From contig CALMLK010000319.1 of assembly GCA_937868035.1 (NCBI GenBank), positions 1 to 11,633 of the forward strand: a stretch of 11,633 nt of DNA, in the 5' to 3' direction. Of the stretch, positions 5,259 through 11,326 are shown in pieces. Every line of letters begins with the position of its first letter. Position 1 is the first letter of the stretch. Made by a program: the position numbers and the translations under genes. This stretch comes from an uncultured Alphaproteobacteria bacterium (GTDB lineage: Bacteria; Pseudomonadota; Alphaproteobacteria; Rhizobiales; Aestuariivirgaceae). The notes below the pieces were generated by a model that was not told the origin of the DNA, ran no database searches, and was given only the letters and a program-made list of their open reading frames with translations.

Positions 5259-6335
5259 ATGCCTGTGCGCATTGATCTTTCCGCGGTCCAGTTTGGCGAG
5301 AAGGAAAAGCCGCTGGCGGAAGCCGCAGGCTTCACGCTCTCGACCTTCCGCTACGACAGTGGCATCGCCGCGTTGCGGGTACGGAACAGGCGGGGTGAGA
5401 TCATCGTGCTGCCTTTCAAGGGGCATCAGATCTGGCGCTGCATCTTCGATGGCCGCGACCTCACGATGAAGTCGATGTTCGAGCAACCGGTGCCGGATGT
5501 GCCCTATCTCGAAACCTACGGTGCATTCTTCATCCACTGCGGCGCCACCGCCATCGGTGCGCCCGGTCCCACCGACCGCCATCCCCTGCATGGCGAGCTT
5601 CCCAATGCGCCTTACCAGAAGGGCTGGGTCGTCCTGGATGAGCAGAAGGGCACATGCGCCATTGTTGGCACCTATGAATACACGGTGGCCTTCTCGTACC
5701 ACTTCCTCGCAACGTCGACCCATGTGATGGGCGCGGATTCGACCCTGCTTGATATTTCACTTTCGGTCGAGAACCTGAAGAAGACGCCCATGGACCTGAT
5801 GTATCTGGCCCATGCCAACTTCCGGCCCGTGGACAATGGCGAACTGGTCTATAGCGCACCGGCCACCGCCAAGGCCGTGCGGGTGCGCAAGTCCATTCCA
5901 GCCCACATTACCCCGACCGCGGCGTACAAGGATTTCCTGGAGAAACTGGCCGCTGATCCCAAACTGCATCATGTTCTGAAACCGGGCCTCGCCTTTGATC
6001 CGGAAGTGGCAATGACCATCGACATGACGGCAGGACCTGACGGGTTCGCGCATGCCCTGTTGCGGCGACCGGATGGATCATCGGACTATATGCGCTACCG
6101 CCCCGAGCAGTGCGGACAATGCATCCGCTGGATCTGCCGCACGCCTGACCAGGATGCCATTGGCGTTGCGTTCCCTTCGACGTCGGAAGTGGAAGGCTAT
6201 TCGGCGGAAAAGAAGAAGGGTCTCTATGTGAACCTGGGTGGCGGCGAGACATGGCGCGTGGACATGCGGGTGGGAACGCTGGATGCGGAAGACACCACCC
6301 GTGTTGCCAGGGAGATCGCAGAGATCAACGGGTGA
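5259..6335 (+). CDS. DUF4432 family, aldose 1-epimerase (galactose mutarotase)-like protein
   Basis: The 358-residue protein looks like a galactose-mutarotase-fold protein of the DUF4432 group. Beta-rich segments alternate throughout. LPFKGHQIW lies at about 51-59, HPLHGELPNAPYQKGW at 108-123 recalls the HG...W segment of mutarotases, and YLAHANFRP at 182-190 recalls their second conserved histidine segment. The ATG at 5259 is chosen over upstream in-frame codons because AAGGA (5246-5250) sits eight bases ahead and because longer starts would run into the rhaI 3' end. It lies 82 bases after rhaI on the same strand and is probably in the same operon. A role in interconverting sugar anomers for rhamnose use is a reasonable inference, since no RhaM/RhaU-type mutarotase is present in the window. 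The substrate is unknown. Confidence 0.8.
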   Translation: MPVRIDLSAVQFGEKEKPLAEAAGFTLSTFRYDSGIAALRVRNRRGEIIVLPFKGHQIWRCIFDGRDLTMKSMFEQPVPDVPYLETYGAFFIHCGATAIGAPGPTDRHPLHGELPNAPYQKGWVVLDEQKGTCAIVGTYEYTVAFSYHFLATSTHVMGADSTLLDISLSVENLKKTPMDLMYLAHANFRPVDNGELVYSAPATAKAVRVRKSIPAHITPTAAYKDFLEKLAADPKLHHVLKPGLAFDPEVAMTIDMTAGPDGFAHALLRRPDGSSDYMRYRPEQCGQCIRWICRTPDQDAIGVAFPSTSEVEGYSAEKKKGLYVNLGGGETWRVDMRVGTLDAEDTTRVAREIAEING

Positions 6336-6338
6336 TTG

Positions 6339-7040
6339 ATGTCAGGGCTTCGGCTTTCTCCCGCACATGTGGCGCTGTGCCACCGCGAGGTGGCGGATGC
6401 CGGGCCCTTGCCGTCGGTCGAGTTGCTGGGGGAAGAAGATTTCCTGCCGCTCGCGACTTCGATCCTGTCCGGCCGTGGTGACGGGCCGGTCTGGCTTTTC
6501 GCCTATGGGTCTCTGATCTGGAAACCGGAAGTGCCGCATGAGGAGATGCGGCGTGCCGTGGCGCAGGGGTGGCACCGCGCCTTTTCCATGCAGATCCGGC
6601 GCCACCGTGGCACCATCGAGCAACCTGGCTACATGATGTGCCTTGATCCCGGCGGCCGTTGCGAGGGCGTTGTCTTGCGCTTGCCGGAGAGCAACCTGCT
6701 CAGTACCGTGGAAAAACTGATCCGGCGTGAATTGACCCGCCGTGGCGCAGTCGAGGCGGTGCGCTGGATTGACGTGGAGACGCCGCAAGGGCTGCTCAAG
6801 GCGTTGGCCTTCTATGCCGGGCCGTCACGTCTGGACAACTATATGGCGGGGCGCCCGCTGGCGGACGTGGCTCACGGCCTGGCGCGTGCCTGCGGGCACT
6901 GGGGGTCGGGCGCGGAATATCTCTACAATACGGTCTCTCACCTGGAAGCGCTGGGCATCCACGACGAAGGGTTGTGGCGCTTGCAGGAGAAGGTGGCGGC
7001 GGAGATCGAGACGCTTTACGGGAAGCCCATGCCGCTCTGA
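6339..7040 (+). CDS. chaC: ChaC-type glutathione-specific gamma-glutamylcyclotransferase
   Basis: The 233-residue protein has the ChaC signature VWLFAYGSLIWKP (YGSLIW at residues 56-61, the gamma-glutamyl binding loop). It also has a glutamate at 131 (IRREL) at the position of the catalytic acid in the ChaC family. ChaC enzymes release 5-oxoproline from reduced glutathione, leaving Cys-Gly, in the cytosol. The N-terminal 50 residues are an extension common in bacterial members. ATG 6339 follows the DUF4432 stop by three bases, so the gene is probably co-transcribed with the rhamnose genes; whether that is functional or accidental is unclear. A TTG three bases earlier is possible but less likely. 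The 3' end overlaps the opposing cytochrome gene by 25 bases. Family assignment is firm; the physiological role here is inferred. Confidence 0.9.
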   Translation: MSGLRLSPAHVALCHREVADAGPLPSVELLGEEDFLPLATSILSGRGDGPVWLFAYGSLIWKPEVPHEEMRRAVAQGWHRAFSMQIRRHRGTIEQPGYMMCLDPGGRCEGVVLRLPESNLLSTVEKLIRRELTRRGAVEAVRWIDVETPQGLLKALAFYAGPSRLDNYMAGRPLADVAHGLARACGHWGSGAEYLYNTVSHLEALGIHDEGLWRLQEKVAAEIETLYGKPMPL

Positions 7041-7411
7041 GGGGCCGTCTCGAGATCGCTCTTCTTTGCGCCGGCGAATGACAGGCTCATGATGTAGGCG
7101 GCGAGCGCCTCGGCCTGTTCTGGTGACATTTGCCAGTCCGGCATTGCGGGATGGTCAGTGGCCACGCCTTCATTGAAGGCATCCTCAAGGTCGGCAAAGT
7201 CATAGCTGACAGCAATGTCGCGGAACTTCGGTGCGATCACGAGAGGGCTGTCACCTGTCGCATAGATCGCATGGCAGATGGCGCAGTTGGATTCAGCCAG
7301 ACGCTTGCCGTGGTCGATCTTGGCCTGGTCATCCTGTGCCGCGGCGGCCAATGTGAATGCAAGCGCTGCTAAACATGCAGCGGCAATGCCAATGGCGGTA
7401 CGCTTCATCAT
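7016..7411 (-). CDS. Exported monohaem cytochrome c (class I-like), second of a pair
   Basis: The 131-residue precursor has a signal peptide (MMKR, then a hydrophobic stretch to about residue 22 and an AAAAQ cleavage region near 25-26). It has one haem-binding motif CAICH at 43-47 and a likely distal ligand M90 in HPAMPDW. The mature protein is about 105 residues with a short polar C-terminal tail. It would be a periplasmic electron carrier or a subunit of an oxidoreductase. ATG 7411 overlaps the stop of the upstream cytochrome in the string ATGA, so the two are translationally coupled. The 3' end runs 25 bases into chaC on the other strand. Longer in-frame openings upstream lie inside the first cytochrome gene and lack a signal peptide. 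The specific electron partner cannot be named. Confidence 0.9.
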   Translation of the reverse strand: MMKRTAIGIAAACLAALAFTLAAAAQDDQAKIDHGKRLAESNCAICHAIYATGDSPLVIAPKFRDIAVSYDFADLEDAFNEGVATDHPAMPDWQMSPEQAEALAAYIMSLSFAGAKKSDLETAPQSGMGFP

Positions 7412-7788: not shown

Positions 7789-8463
7789 TCAGCTGCCGAG
7801 ATGGGTTTTCCAGAAGGCCAGCATGCGCTTCCAGGCCAATTCGGCGGCCGCACGGTCATGCACGCCGCGCTGTTCATTCATGAAGGCGTGGTCGGCGTCG
7901 TAGCTGAAGATTTCGACCGCCGGACGCACGGATGCGAGGGACTGGGAAAGATTCGCAACCAGTTCTGGGGTGCACCAGTCGTCACTGCTGGCAAAATGAC
8001 CCTGAAACGGGATGTGGATCTCTTCGGGATGCGCCGCGGCGCGGGGCGGAATGCCGTAGAAGCAACAGGCGGCAGCAATTTCCGGGAGACGGACGGCTCC
8101 CAGGATGGTGACAGCCCCGCCCAGGCAGAAGCCGGTGAGGCCGACCTTGGCGCCACTGCGTGACAAGTACTGGGCGGCCCCGCGCACGATGTTGTCGGTG
8201 GCATCGAGAAAGTCCAGCGAGGCCATCTCTTGATTGGCGCGTTCCGTGTCGTGGTAGGGCACGGTGGTTCCGGCATAGAGGTCGGGAGCAAGCGCTTCGT
8301 ATCCGGCGCGGGCCAGGCGGTCGCAGATGCCCTTGATCTGATCCTGCAGGCCCCACCATTCCTGGATCACGATGACGCCAGGGGCATGGTCACGCCCCGG
8401 TTTGGCGAGATAGCCTGCGGTTTCCTTGCCGTCATGGCGTTTGAAGGTGATTGCTGTGCCCAT
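7789..8463 (-). CDS. Dienelactone hydrolase family protein
   Basis: The 224-residue alpha/beta hydrolase has the features of dienelactone hydrolases. The nucleophile is a cysteine, C113, in GFCLGG; D161 or D162 lies in ASSDDWCTPE; H192 lies in DADHAFMNE; and E35 in VIVIQEWWGL corresponds to the glutamate that controls the cysteine. No signal peptide is seen, so it is cytoplasmic. A good ribosome site, GGGAGG, precedes the ATG at 8463. It has its own probable promoter and an inverted repeat upstream. No chlorocatechol or other aromatic ring-cleavage genes lie nearby, so true dienelactone is not supported as substrate. Many paralogues act on other esters or lactones. The family is firm; the substrate is unknown. 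Confidence 0.9.
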   Translation of the reverse strand: MGTAITFKRHDGKETAGYLAKPGRDHAPGVIVIQEWWGLQDQIKGICDRLARAGYEALAPDLYAGTTVPYHDTERANQEMASLDFLDATDNIVRGAAQYLSRSGAKVGLTGFCLGGAVTILGAVRLPEIAAACCFYGIPPRAAAHPEEIHIPFQGHFASSDDWCTPELVANLSQSLASVRPAVEIFSYDADHAFMNEQRGVHDRAAAELAWKRMLAFWKTHLGS

Positions 8464-8475
8464 GGTCCTGCCTCC

Positions 8476-8516
8476 CTTTGCAGTGCAAGTGTCGCAAAGC
8501 GGTTGGCGCGTGACAA
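8476..8516 (-). promoter_or_regulatory. Probable promoter and inverted repeat upstream of the hydrolase gene
   Basis: On the minus strand, TTGTCA (8516-8511) is followed after 17 bases by GACACT (8493-8488), a plausible -35/-10 pair for the hydrolase gene. A perfect inverted repeat, CTTTGC (8476-8481) with GCAAAG (8494-8499), brackets the -10 and the expected start site with a 12-base spacer. That is a position where a repressor would block transcription. Both are small enough to arise by chance. Confidence 0.35.
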
Positions 8517-8569
8517 GGGACCAGCCACCACCCTTGCGCGGCGGCCTCCATCATGAAACAAGGTGCGCC

Positions 8570-8809
8570 ATGTCATTCGGATCAACCGACCATCCCTTCT
8601 ACCGTCCCCTGTGGCGGCGCCTTGCCATCATCGCCGTGACGGCGGTGTGGGCAGCGCTTGAGATCTTCCGTGGCGGTGAGCCGATGTGGATAGTGATCGC
8701 GGGCGGAGCCTTTGCCTATTCGCTGTGGACGTTCCTGATCACCTGGAAAGATCCTGTCCAAACCGAACCGGTCAAGCCCGCGCCACCTTCTCCGCCAGAT
8801 CAGAATTGA
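8570..8809 (+). CDS. Small two-helix membrane protein of unknown function
   Basis: The 79-residue protein begins MSFGSTDHPFYRPLWRR, then has two hydrophobic segments at about residues 18-32 and 38-56, and ends in a proline-rich polar tail (PVKPAPPSPP). The HPFYRPLWRR entry motif followed by two short helices is familiar from small conserved alphaproteobacterial membrane proteins, some of which I believe are labelled DUF3329, but I am not sure of that name. ATG 8570 is chosen because AAGGTG precedes it and because a longer in-frame opening would cross the divergent hydrolase start. It would sit in the inner membrane with the tail in the cytoplasm or periplasm (not decidable). Its last 38 bases overlap the 3' end of the opposing Popeye-like gene. 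No function is proposed. Confidence 0.7.
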   Translation: MSFGSTDHPFYRPLWRRLAIIAVTAVWAALEIFRGGEPMWIVIAGGAFAYSLWTFLITWKDPVQTEPVKPAPPSPPDQN

Positions 8810-9422
8810 GCAGCGTCAAAAGCGCGTTCTTCAACTCGCCATCCTTGTCGCAGGCACGGCGCAATTCGGCATGGGCCCATGACACCAGCACGGCACGGGG
8901 CTTGACCGTGACAGTCGCTGTTGCCGGCCTGTCCCGCAGGTAGGCCAGTTCGCCGATGAAGACGGCGGGATCGACGTCGATGGCGCGGCCCGACTTGTTG
9001 ACCTCGACGCCGCCGTCCAGAACATAGTAGAGGCGATCAAGGAGTTGGCCTTCCTTGGTGATCGCGCGGCCTTCTTCCAACTGTTCCCACCGGCCCAGTT
9101 TCATCAGCCGGCGGAACTGGCCCGGTGTCAGACCACGCAAATTCTGAAACAGTGTCATTTCGTGGTCACTCAGCGACGTCATCCGGCGGTCGCGCAGGAT
9201 GAGCGCAATCATCACAATATTGATGCCCATGTTGGGGATGATCCAGAAGATTGCTTCCCACAGGGGGCTGGAAGATGCGCTGTAGTAATAGGCCATGTAG
9301 GCGAAGTCGCCGGCGATGGCGAAGGTGCGAAGCGCTATCTGGTCACGGAACAGAAAGCAGATCAGATAGAGCACGGCACCGACATGAATCAGGTGCTGTG
9401 CCATGGCCTCGAAGCCCGGCAT
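8772..9422 (-). CDS. Popeye-like membrane protein with cyclic-nucleotide-binding-like domain, copy 1
   Basis: The 216-residue protein has three predicted membrane helices (about 8-25, 31-48, 54-77), then a connector EMTLFQNLRGLTPGQFRRL (88-106) and a beta-roll domain to the end. The roll contains LYYVLDGGVEV (131-141) and FIGELAYLRDRPATATVTV (155-173), the counterpart of the phosphate-binding cassette of CAP/PKA-type domains. After it come LVSWAHAELRR (179-189) and a final helix. The order of three helices plus a cyclic-nucleotide-type roll, with SW before the last helices, matches the animal Popeye-domain proteins (POPDC), which bind cAMP. The canonical arginine of the cassette is an alanine here (A167). 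GGGAG lies nine bases ahead of the ATG. It sits 89 bases downstream of its paralogue and aligns with it without gaps. Ligand and partner are unknown. Confidence 0.85.
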   Translation of the reverse strand: MPGFEAMAQHLIHVGAVLYLICFLFRDQIALRTFAIAGDFAYMAYYYSASSSPLWEAIFWIIPNMGINIVMIALILRDRRMTSLSDHEMTLFQNLRGLTPGQFRRLMKLGRWEQLEEGRAITKEGQLLDRLYYVLDGGVEVNKSGRAIDVDPAVFIGELAYLRDRPATATVTVKPRAVLVSWAHAELRRACDKDGELKNALLTLLNSDLAEKVARA

Positions 9423-9485
9423 TGTCGTTCACTCCCATTGTCCCGCCATGAGGCTGGACGGCGCGCGGCCTTCTTGTCTAGAGGG

Positions 9486-9509
9486 AAAAATTCCGACTTT
9501 GTGGTCCGG
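9486..9509 (-). terminator. Possible intrinsic terminator after Popeye-like copy 2
   Basis: On the minus strand, just past the stop codon of copy 2, CCGGAC pairs with GTCGG (one bulged G) around a CACAAA loop and is followed by AATTTTT. The stem is short and imperfect, so termination may be partial and copy 1 may still be read from the upstream gene. Confidence 0.4.
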
Positions 9510-9511
9510 GT

Positions 9512-10156
9512 CTAGGCGGCGGCCACCTTGTCGGCCATGTCGGCGGAAAGAAGGGCCTGCATGGCGTTCTTCAGGTCATCGTTTTTTTTCAGAAGTGTGC
9601 GCAACTCCGCCTGGTCCCACGACACATAAAGCGATTTCTCCGCCGTCGTCACCGTGGCGCTGGCGGCCTTGTCGCGCAGGAAGGCGATCTCGCCGATGAA
9701 CAGGCGCGGGTCGCGCTCCATCACGCGGCCCTGTTTGCCGATCGTCACCTTGCCATCCAGCACGTAGTAGAGCTTGTCGAGCATCGCGCCCTCCTCGGTG
9801 AGCCGTGCCGGCTCTTCGCCCTCGTGCCATGTTGCCAATTTCAGCAGTTTGCGGAACTGACCGGGATTGAGCGTTTCGAGGCAGCGGAACAACGTCATCT
9901 CGTTGTCGGTCAGCAGTGACATGCGGTGTTCGCGCAGCAGGATGGCGATCATGGTCACATTGATGGCGACATTGGCGATGCTCCAGACCAGCGGGTTCCA
10001 GAGCGGATCAGCAAAGGCAAAATAGTAATAAGCCGACAGCAGGCTGTCGCCGATGGCCGCGAAGATGCGGAGCTTGATCTGGTCGCGAAACATGTAGCAG
10101 ACCAGTGTGGCGATGGCCGCAAGATGGACCAGATAGTCAGGCGAAAAGGCTGGCAT
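9512..10156 (-). CDS. Popeye-like membrane protein with cyclic-nucleotide-binding-like domain, copy 2
   Basis: The 214-residue paralogue of the downstream gene aligns with it end to end at a constant two-residue offset. By eye about half the positions are identical, including RDQI, AYYY, PLW, EMTLF, PGQFR, LYYVLDG, GE-A-LRD and SW-AEL. It has three membrane helices at about 8-22, 29-46 and 52-75, then a cyclic-nucleotide-type roll. Its cassette is FIGEIAFLRDKAASATVTT (153-171), again with alanine (A165) in place of the usual arginine. The WNPLVWSIANVAIN segment (53-66) resembles the third helix of POPDC proteins. The coding strand has a run of eight A's near codons 190-192. It is the first gene of the tandem pair and diverges from the aldo/keto reductase across 105 bases. 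No clear ribosome site precedes the ATG. Confidence 0.85.
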   Translation of the reverse strand: MPAFSPDYLVHLAAIATLVCYMFRDQIKLRIFAAIGDSLLSAYYYFAFADPLWNPLVWSIANVAINVTMIAILLREHRMSLLTDNEMTLFRCLETLNPGQFRKLLKLATWHEGEEPARLTEEGAMLDKLYYVLDGKVTIGKQGRVMERDPRLFIGEIAFLRDKAASATVTTAEKSLYVSWDQAELRTLLKKNDDLKNAMQALLSADMADKVAAA

Positions 10157-10261
10157 AAATATTCACACGTTTGGCGCCGCGCATTCTGCATCTGCACGAA
10201 ACGCAGTTGATTATCGCCCCCGTCCATGGCGTGATAGCGCAAAACGCGGGAGGATCAACTG
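10157..10261. promoter_or_regulatory. Divergent intergenic region between Popeye-like copy 2 and the aldo/keto reductase
   Basis: These 105 bases must hold promoters for both neighbours. On the plus strand TTGATT (10207-10212) and TGATAG (10232-10237) are a poorly spaced (19 base) candidate. On the minus strand GATAAT (10217-10212) is a good -10 without a clear -35. The reductase has a strong ribosome site GGGAGGA at 10248-10254, seven bases before its ATG. No convincing operator was found. Confidence 0.35.
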
Positions 10262-11326
10262 ATGGAATACCGTTCTCTGGGCCGCTCCGGCCTCAAGATT
10301 TCGCTGCACACGCTGGGAACCATGAATTTCGCAGGCGAGGGCTTCTTCGACAAGATTGGCGGGATCACTCCGCAGGAATGCAAGCGTCTGGTGGATGTGG
10401 CGGTCGACCACGGCGTCAACCTCATTGATACGGCCAATGTCTACACCACGGGCAAATCGGAAGAAGCGCTGGGGGCTGCCATCAAGGGCCGTTCCAACCA
10501 GCTGATGGTGGGCACCAAGGTGCGTTTCCCCATGGGCCAGGGACCCAACGAGCAGGGTAATTCGCGCTGGCACATCATCAACGAATGCGAAGCCAGCCTG
10601 AAGCGGCTCGGACGTGATCACATCGACATCTACTACTTGCATGAATGGGACGGGATGACGCCGGTGGAGGAATCCATGGCGGCATTGGACCTGCTCGTGA
10701 AGCAGGGCAAGGTGCGCTACATCGGCTGCTCGAATTTCTCCGGTTGGCACATCATGAAATGCATGATGGCGGCCGACCGCCACAACTTCGAGAAATTCGT
10801 GGTGCAGCAGATCCACTACACGCTGGAATCGCGCGATGCCGAGTTCGAACTGATTCCGCTGGCGATCGACCAGGGCATCGGCGTGCAGGTGTGGAGCCCC
10901 ATCGCGGGCGGACTGCTCTCCGGCAAGTTCCGCAAGGGCGTGACGCCCGACGTGACGCGGCACAACAACAACTGGGGTGAGCCACCGATCCGCGATGAAG
11001 CGCGTCTCTTTGAGATCATGGACGTGCTGGCCAAGGTCGCGGACGGACGCGGCGTATCCGGTGCCCAGGTGGCGCTGGCCTGGCTGGCGGGCCGTGCAGG
11101 CATCTGCTCGCTCGTTCTCGGCGCGCGCAATGAGGCCCAGTTGAAGGACAATCTCGCCTCCGCCTCGCTCGTCCTCACCGCGGAAGAACGCGCCATGCTG
11201 GATGATGTGAGCCTGCTGCAACTCCTTTATCCCTACTGGCACCAGCTCAATGCGGCGCCGCGCCTCGGCGCTGCCGACCTTTCGCTGATGGCACCACATG
11301 TGGCCCGGATGAAGCCGCGTCTGTGA
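10262..11326 (+). CDS. Aldo/keto reductase
   Basis: The 354-residue NADPH-type TIM-barrel oxidoreductase has the full catalytic tetrad: D56 in LIDTANVY, Y61, K86 in GTKVRFP and H127 in YYLHEWD. The CSNFSGW segment and the cofactor-binding VLGAR region near the C-terminus (about 282-286) are also typical. Length is slightly above the common 310-340, as in the YajO/Tas-like branch. It would reduce aldehydes or ketones, possibly sugar-derived, in the cytosol. The start is clear (GGGAGGA, seven bases, ATG), and relatives begin MEYR-LG-SGL-VS. It is a single-gene unit, with a divergent neighbour upstream and a strong terminator ten bases downstream. The substrate cannot be read from sequence. A role in handling lactaldehyde or other rhamnose products is conceivable but not supported, as the rhamnose genes are 4 kb away. 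Confidence 0.92.
   Translation: MEYRSLGRSGLKISLHTLGTMNFAGEGFFDKIGGITPQECKRLVDVAVDHGVNLIDTANVYTTGKSEEALGAAIKGRSNQLMVGTKVRFPMGQGPNEQGNSRWHIINECEASLKRLGRDHIDIYYLHEWDGMTPVEESMAALDLLVKQGKVRYIGCSNFSGWHIMKCMMAADRHNFEKFVVQQIHYTLESRDAEFELIPLAIDQGIGVQVWSPIAGGLLSGKFRKGVTPDVTRHNNNWGEPPIRDEARLFEIMDVLAKVADGRGVSGAQVALAWLAGRAGICSLVLGARNEAQLKDNLASASLVLTAEERAMLDDVSLLQLLYPYWHQLNAAPRLGAADLSLMAPHVARMKPRL

Follow-up and report, generated by a model that had tools for sequence, protein, structure and literature searches.

The stretch of DNA analysed here (the window, 11,633 nucleotides of contig CALMLK010000319.1 from an uncultured member of the Alphaproteobacteria) contains two adjacent genes, A and B, whose products are supported by profile comparison as full-length kin of the animal Popeye domain-containing (POPDC) proteins. 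By their sequences, both are assigned to a bacterial branch within the larger Popeye family and not to POPDC in the strict animal sense, because GEIA in A and GELA in B (class motif GE-x-A) replace the DSPE of the animal pocket. The open reading frames (ORFs), the selection acting on them, the predicted fold, the full-length kinship, a half-canonical pocket and the linkage of a sister subfamily to FecR and CHASE2-adenylate cyclase genes were computed here. The kinship, set against the published animal origin of POPDC, the pocket and the cyclase neighbourhood of the sister subfamily are the surprising results. The best explanation, to which about an even chance is given, is that A and B are membrane-anchored second-messenger adaptors of the bacterial Popeye branch.

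A and B are real genes on which purifying selection acts, since another species of the host genus (G007) has the two in unchanged order (identity of 85% for A and 80% for B) and the ratios of nonsynonymous to synonymous substitution (dN/dS) between the window and that genome are about 0.09 for A and 0.13 for B. The first-pass annotation had described a tandem pair of Popeye-like membrane proteins, and this was confirmed. The two are paralogues with 51% identity in full-length comparison, and in AlphaFold2 models each is predicted to contain three helices followed by a roll of the cyclic nucleotide-binding domain (CNBD) fold (Table 1). A clear hydropathy signal is seen only in helix 3 and in B helix 1; the membrane embedding and orientation of the helices are predicted. 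The family comparisons use 298 unique full-length members, 66 from loci and 232 from protein searches, which were left from 387 hits after duplicates and partial sequences were dropped and vertebrate entries excluded. R30 is Arg in all 298 members and N66 is Asn in 295. The residue at the end of the roll is Trp in 164 and Phe in 132. The animal POPDC1-3/BVES proteins (PF04831) likewise have three N-terminal helices, a CNBD-fold Popeye domain with Trp at the roll end and the connector P-x-x-F-R, which is found in A, in B and in about half of the bacterial family. Tandem paralogues and an adenylyl cyclase link of one family branch are further points of likeness, whereas A and B lack the long C-terminal tail.

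Table 1. Features of the A/B region and its flanks, in window coordinates
Feature	Positions	Strand	Extent	Remarks
Gene A	9512..10156	minus	214 aa	bacterial Popeye protein
A helix 1	10097..10138	minus	residues 7-20	predicted membrane helix
A helix 2	10019..10081	minus	residues 26-46	contains R30
A helix 3	9914..10000	minus	residues 53-81	contains W58 and N66
A phosphate-binding-cassette equivalent	9650..9700	minus	residues 153-169	FIGEIAFLRDKAASATV; Glu156 kept, canonical Arg position is Ala165
A C-terminal (alpha-C, lid/dimer) helix	9518..9580	minus	residues 193-213	D206-M207-A-D-K210
A-B intergenic gap	9423..9511	minus	89 nt	
Gene B	8772..9422	minus	216 aa	bacterial Popeye protein, paralogue of A
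B helix 1	9357..9419	minus	residues 2-22	
B helix 2	9279..9341	minus	residues 28-48	
B helix 3	9186..9260	minus	residues 55-79	
B phosphate-binding-cassette equivalent	8910..8960	minus	residues 155-171	FIGELAYLRDRPATATV; Glu158 kept, Arg position is Ala167
B C-terminal helix	8778..8840	minus	residues 195-215	D208-L209-A-E-K212
Aldo-keto reductase	10262-11326	plus		flank of A
Small ORF	8426-8809	plus		convergent with B, 38-nt overlap
Ion_trans_2 (ion-channel family) gene	376-822	minus	148 aa	no CNBD match

The proposal that the pair is prokaryotic kin of the Popeye family held up in profile searches. With Pfam POPDC1-3 (PF04831), A scores 34.2 and B 30.1 bits against a gathering score of 28.1, and with cNMP_binding (PF00027) they score 36.3 and 40.0 bits against 27.5. 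Both families are matched, at E 0.01 or better, by 22 of 22 diverse family members. In a six-frame genome scan with PF04831 the scores were 23.2 for A and 22.9 for B, below the gathering score. Three alignments were then compared by hhalign: a diverse bacterial Popeye set (A5), an A-centred set (A3) and ten vertebrate POPDC1 of the 120 listed (A6). A5 aligns with vertebrate POPDC1 at 98.8% (E 4.3e-17) over 222 columns that cover helices and roll, and A3 at 96.5% (E 8e-10) over 196 columns. The halves of A5 match POPDC1 separately and in the same order, the helices at 95.9% (E 6.5e-9, 82 columns) and the roll at 94.8% (E 5e-8, 137 columns), whereas CNBD controls align poorly: six bacterial CNBD proteins, a thin control, reach 4.3% (E 0.0095) and twelve CNBD-only ORFs reach 12.5% (E 0.0023). 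The aligned pairs of A and POPDC1 include R30/R70, W58/W96, N66/N104, W180/W230 and D206-M207-x-x-K210/D256-I257-x-x-K260, and R70 and N104 are invariant among the aligned POPDC1.

The first-pass annotation had also specified that a roll seated in ordinary CNBD families, with no preference for Popeye, would speak against the kinship. By Pfam, the roll indeed lacks such a preference, as cNMP_binding outscores POPDC1-3 for both proteins; over the full length, on the other hand, POPDC is preferred. The Pfam order would suit an independent fusion in bacteria of an ordinary CRP-like CNBD with three membrane helices, in which case the bacterial proteins would resemble POPDC by convergence on one scaffold. 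An independent origin of POPDC has been proposed (PMC5872366; here and below, citations refer to selected sections of the papers), and in a tree with vertebrate POPDC1 as the only animal entries, rooted at the midpoint, a long branch of 2.68 changes per column sets POPDC1 apart from all 38 bacterial rows. As far as these sequences go, that tree gives no direction of family movement between bacteria and animals. The separate matches of helices and roll, the poor alignment of the controls and the polar R30 and N66, which land on the invariant R70 and N104, make a fusion of this kind improbable.

A and B also pass the profile of the canonical CNBDs (PKA-R, CRP/CAP, HCN, MloK1; PF00027) and share their roll fold; unlike these, they have Ala in place of the pocket Arg and contain no DNA-binding, kinase-inhibitor or channel part. 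It is hardly credible that they are membrane-tethered transcription regulators of the Crp/Fnr type. One Popeye-family database protein (P0177) is automatically named ‘Crp/Fnr family transcriptional regulator’, and in sequence the CNBD is near the PKA, channel and CRP domains. However, A and B, relatives of that database protein, terminate after the C-terminal helix in the models, and no helix-turn-helix family was found in their Pfam scan or was visible in the models. This candidate was rejected for want of a C-terminal helix-turn-helix.

The pocket sets the bacterial family apart from both known types. Canonical cassettes carry Glu and Arg (PMC8706714, PMC2246266). Of the 298 members, 297 retain the pocket Glu and Gly, and the position of the canonical Arg is occupied by Ala in 294, Thr in two, Pro in one, Gly in one and Arg in none. 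The same position in the twelve CNBD-only ORFs of the same loci is Arg in five, His in six and Ala in one. The V of the animal FQVT is kept in 287 members. Judged by its residues, the bacterial Popeye pocket is neither canonical nor of animal type, but half-canonical, since the Glu is kept, the Arg is lost and the DSPE is absent. The survey of CNB domains in 30 families (PMC2246266) does not use the word Popeye, and the covered parts of its table hold no cassette of the bacterial Popeye kind.

The strongest rival, although an unlikely one, is a ligand-free scaffold in which the roll has lost nucleotide binding and is only a dimerisation or docking domain. Other CNBD-fold domains exist that bind no cyclic nucleotide. 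The absence of the canonical Arg from every family member agrees with such a scaffold, as does the central place of Arg209 in the canonical cyclic AMP (cAMP) switch (Kannan et al. 2007, PMC2246266). On the other hand, the near-universal Glu and Gly are beyond what a dead pocket needs, and a cyclase adjoins the sister subfamily. Furthermore, animal POPDC has DSPE/FQVT in place of the canonical cassette and still binds cAMP (PMC4918794, PMC8706714), with an affinity of about 120 nM (PMC4918794, PMC9724675).

The C-terminal helix resembles that of POPDC1. The POPDC1-POPDC2 heteromer forms via the alpha-C helix, with F249, I253 and I257 of POPDC1 at the interface (PMC9830914). The equivalent positions 199, 203 and 207 (i, i+4 and i+8) are hydrophobic in nearly all of the 298 bacterial members, and the lid-helix motif D-phi-x-x-K (D256 and K260 in POPDC1) is kept in 268. 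The bacterial family appears to share the alpha-C interface features of POPDC1 and may form a comparable dimer. A VIA alignment sets A 79-214 against HCN2 501-636; there K210 would fall near HCN2 R632, a cAMP contact, which is a tentative lead. No solved POPDC structure was among the matches listed from Foldseek, VIA-align and sequence searches of the PDB, which does not prove its absence, and PMC6952887 and PMC8706714 state that none has been solved.

When 69 Popeye proteins are placed in a tree, A and B lie inside one clade of 11 (support 98/96), far from the cyclase-linked clade. A groups with its G007 counterpart and one gene of G032 (100/100), and B with its G007 counterpart and one gene of G015 (97/81). 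G004 has a further tandem Popeye pair (L024 at 5876 and 6650, region 5876-7336); its members are sisters of each other, and the gene ahead of them is presumably a LacI-like regulator, from its N-terminal letters. The genomes of the host genus contain zero to six Popeye copies (E 1e-20). Counting the host genome, PF04831 matches were obtained in 19 of 61 relatives, 22 of 297 genomes of the order and 13 of 385 of the class, and in four of 398 of a phylum sample, each of them from that same class. The samples overlap and do not capture every member, as the Popeyes of G008, G022 and G036 were found only by the family profile. L027, the one locus of 13 named as outside the Proteobacteria, carries a Popeye (347-988) in a metagenome-assembled genome of Opitutaceae (Verrucomicrobiota). 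It falls inside the A/B clade (98/96) with a weak position within it (87/37), and may reflect transfer or mis-binning. At another locus (L066 6098-8917), a TIR-TPR protein of 939 aa lies about 0.6 kb from a Popeye gene.

The sister subfamily brings in the link to cyclic nucleotides. Neighbour clustering and Pfam place one Popeye clade beside a DUF3307 gene, a FecR gene and a gene for a 700-aa CHASE2-adenylate cyclase. Cyclase and CHASE2 scans, followed by the Popeye profile around the hits, found this arrangement in 13 of 37 genomes of the host genus. The cyclase ORF is whole in ten of these and cut by a contig end in three (L055, L059, L167); FecR is uncalled in L120 and DUF3307 in L167, and in two genomes beyond the 13, G010 and G021, the contig ends inside FecR. 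In a tree of 21 cyclases, the ten Popeye-linked and two contig-end enzymes stand on one side of a branch with support of 88/99, below the tool’s star mark. Across the 37 genomes, the cyclase clade and the Popeye clade occur together in 13, the cyclase only in two, the Popeye only in three and neither in 19 (Fisher test, p 2e-5, a crude figure from a hand-tallied table that ignores kinship and includes three cyclases assigned by adjacency). Among seven linked loci (21 pairs) the cyclases are only 49-62% and the Popeyes 52-72% identical, so the neighbourhood, read from these sequences, has outlasted much divergence. With L051 as reference, the Popeye recurs in 11 of 11, DUF3307 in 11 of 12 and FecR in 11 of 12 of the loci that reach that far, and the cyclase, a phosphoribosyltransferase and a hybrid histidine kinase in nine of nine each; on the other side of the Popeye, genes within 6 kb recur in 0/11 to 6/10 loci. 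L051 3604-10566 holds the whole conserved block, from the hybrid histidine kinase through phosphoribosyltransferase, CHASE2 cyclase, FecR and DUF3307 to the Popeye, within a single genus.

CHASE2-cyclases outside the linked clade were found with no adjacent Popeye (L115, L117, L118, L119, L122, L123, L125 and L126, with L130 and L131 atypical), and four loci cut by contig ends (L132, L133, L134, L169) are uninformative on adjacency. Two of the Popeye-free loci contain other CNBD proteins: by Pfam, L117 4287-6912 encodes a CNBD-SpoIIE phosphatase (433 aa) and a small CNBD protein, and by profile, L123 12998-15623 has two such ORFs of the same sizes. Elsewhere, a Popeye and a cyclase share a contig at a distance of about 14 kb in G205, which belongs to the same order; at L031 in the host genus (G002), a Popeye has a different type of cyclase (1108 aa) about 4 kb away; and in L064 (G035), where the contig ends, a FecR gene of the linked kind (144 bits) adjoins a Popeye from a different clade.

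For the membrane topology, dimerisation, ligand and partner of A and B, we infer the following course. Both would be small inner-membrane proteins, whose three helices, with the near-invariant polar R30 and N66, would keep a CNBD-fold roll close against the membrane on its cytoplasmic side. They would pair via the C-terminal helix, as in CAP and POPDC1/2. A small ligand, probably a nucleotide from a class III cyclase, would bind in the roll, shift the C-terminal helix and consequently alter the dimer or a partner in the membrane. In animals, the precedent is the AC9-POPDC1-TREK-1 complex, where AC9 binds POPDC1, probably more strongly via the transmembrane region (PMC9724675).

Several results weigh against A and B as second-messenger adaptors. 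The halves of A3 match POPDC1 more weakly than those of A5 (helices 62.5%, E 7e-5; roll 59.3%, E 9e-5), and the six-protein CNBD control aligns with A3 at 96.7% (E 4e-10), which places the bacterial Popeye roll near ordinary CNBDs as well as near POPDC. By the canonical rule, cAMP binding is doubtful, as the phosphate-binding Arg is Ala in both proteins. The first-pass annotation had proposed a heterodimer or a sensor of two ligands, and this found no support: A occurs without B in G032 (100% complete, four Popeyes) and a B-type Popeye without A in G015 (95% complete), so that the pair is not obligate and an obligate heterodimer appears unlikely, and the pocket motif is the same in both. No cyclase was found among the ten window proteins scanned, and scans of the host genome (79% complete) yielded neither a class III cyclase nor a match to CHASE2. 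The window pair lies outside the FecR-CHASE2 cyclase loci of its genus, and coupling to a cyclase would be attributed to A and B only by analogy with the sister subfamily. In that subfamily itself, three genomes have the linked-clade Popeye with no cyclase in reach (G005, within 20 kb; G023 and G030, whose contigs there are short or ragged), and no cyclase was found within the 3-20 kb examined around 30 Popeye loci outside the host genus (three of them under 6 kb), so the linkage is confined to one genus. Shared synteny of a larger block may explain part of it, since the block also contains the hybrid histidine kinase and the phosphoribosyltransferase.

The surroundings of A and B bear on one more rival, namely a Pycsar-like anti-phage membrane effector triggered by a phage-induced pyrimidine cyclic nucleotide. 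In Pycsar, a class III cyclase produces the nucleotide. The PycTIR/Pycsar effectors share the CNBD half with A and B, and the catalytic part of the sister-subfamily cyclase does match PycC models. On the other hand, the effector-model matches span the CNBD part only, A and B have no TIR domain, and the sister cyclase is a large CHASE2 enzyme with FecR and not a small PycC. No defence neighbourhood was seen: the neighbours with Pfam matches are metabolic, regulatory and redox genes and one channel, and the region of A, B and the aldo-keto reductase is syntenic in a sister species and, from this gene order, is not an island. Such an effector is very improbable and was rejected, with no whole-effector match and no cyclase in the window proteins or the incomplete genome.

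Further neighbours of A and B are a dienelactone hydrolase, two cytochromes c and a ChaC-like gene. The small ORF convergent with B has relatives of 85 aa that adjoin A-type Popeyes in L023 and L024, and the two scanned gave no Pfam match. The Ion_trans_2 gene recurs at L062 584-1030, where the window gene order is kept, and in no other locus compared. A functional link between it and A/B was rejected, as they are about 8 kb apart and the gene is conserved only in that syntenic locus. No sigma-70-like promoter was found in the scan of 8600-10400, and Rfam gave no match at gathering score anywhere in the window.

In the literature, the origin of POPDC is placed early in animals; the family also occurs in protozoa, and neither plants nor fungi have it (PMC4918794, PMC5872366). 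POPDC is said to resemble no non-POPDC protein (PMC4973886), and several POPDC reviews name CRP/CAP as the nearest non-POPDC kin. The covered sections of seven reviews (PMC6562197, PMC6952887, PMC4918794, PMC4973886, PMC8706714, PMC6726836, PMC5872366) make no mention of bacterial Popeye membrane proteins. Phrase searches found no paper on bacterial or prokaryotic Popeye proteins, and none was among the matches listed in wider searches, judged by title or the opening of the abstract, whose coverage leaves out preprints and most subscription papers. The earlier remark that distant bacterial relatives had been noted is true of database annotation, where seven of 120 among the matches listed bear the label ‘Popeye protein conserved region’, but not of the POPDC review text in these sections.

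POPDC proteins are linked to heart and muscle disease, and bacterial Popeyes of about 215 residues are tractable for structural and in vitro work with the cyclase. With the cyclase-linked subfamily, the partnership of Popeye and cyclase could be tested in a simple system, and the cyclase adjacency of this subfamily suggests that the link between Popeye and cyclic AMP may far predate animals. Tentatively, and with somewhat less than even confidence, the Alphaproteobacteria are proposed to hold a prokaryotic Popeye branch with an intermediate pocket, in which the partnership with adenylate cyclase already existed in bacteria; POPDC would then be neither born in animals nor a domain that evolved independently. 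A bacterial family with such a pocket would overturn both the early-animal origin (PMC4918794, PMC5872366) and the view that POPDC has no kin (PMC4973886).

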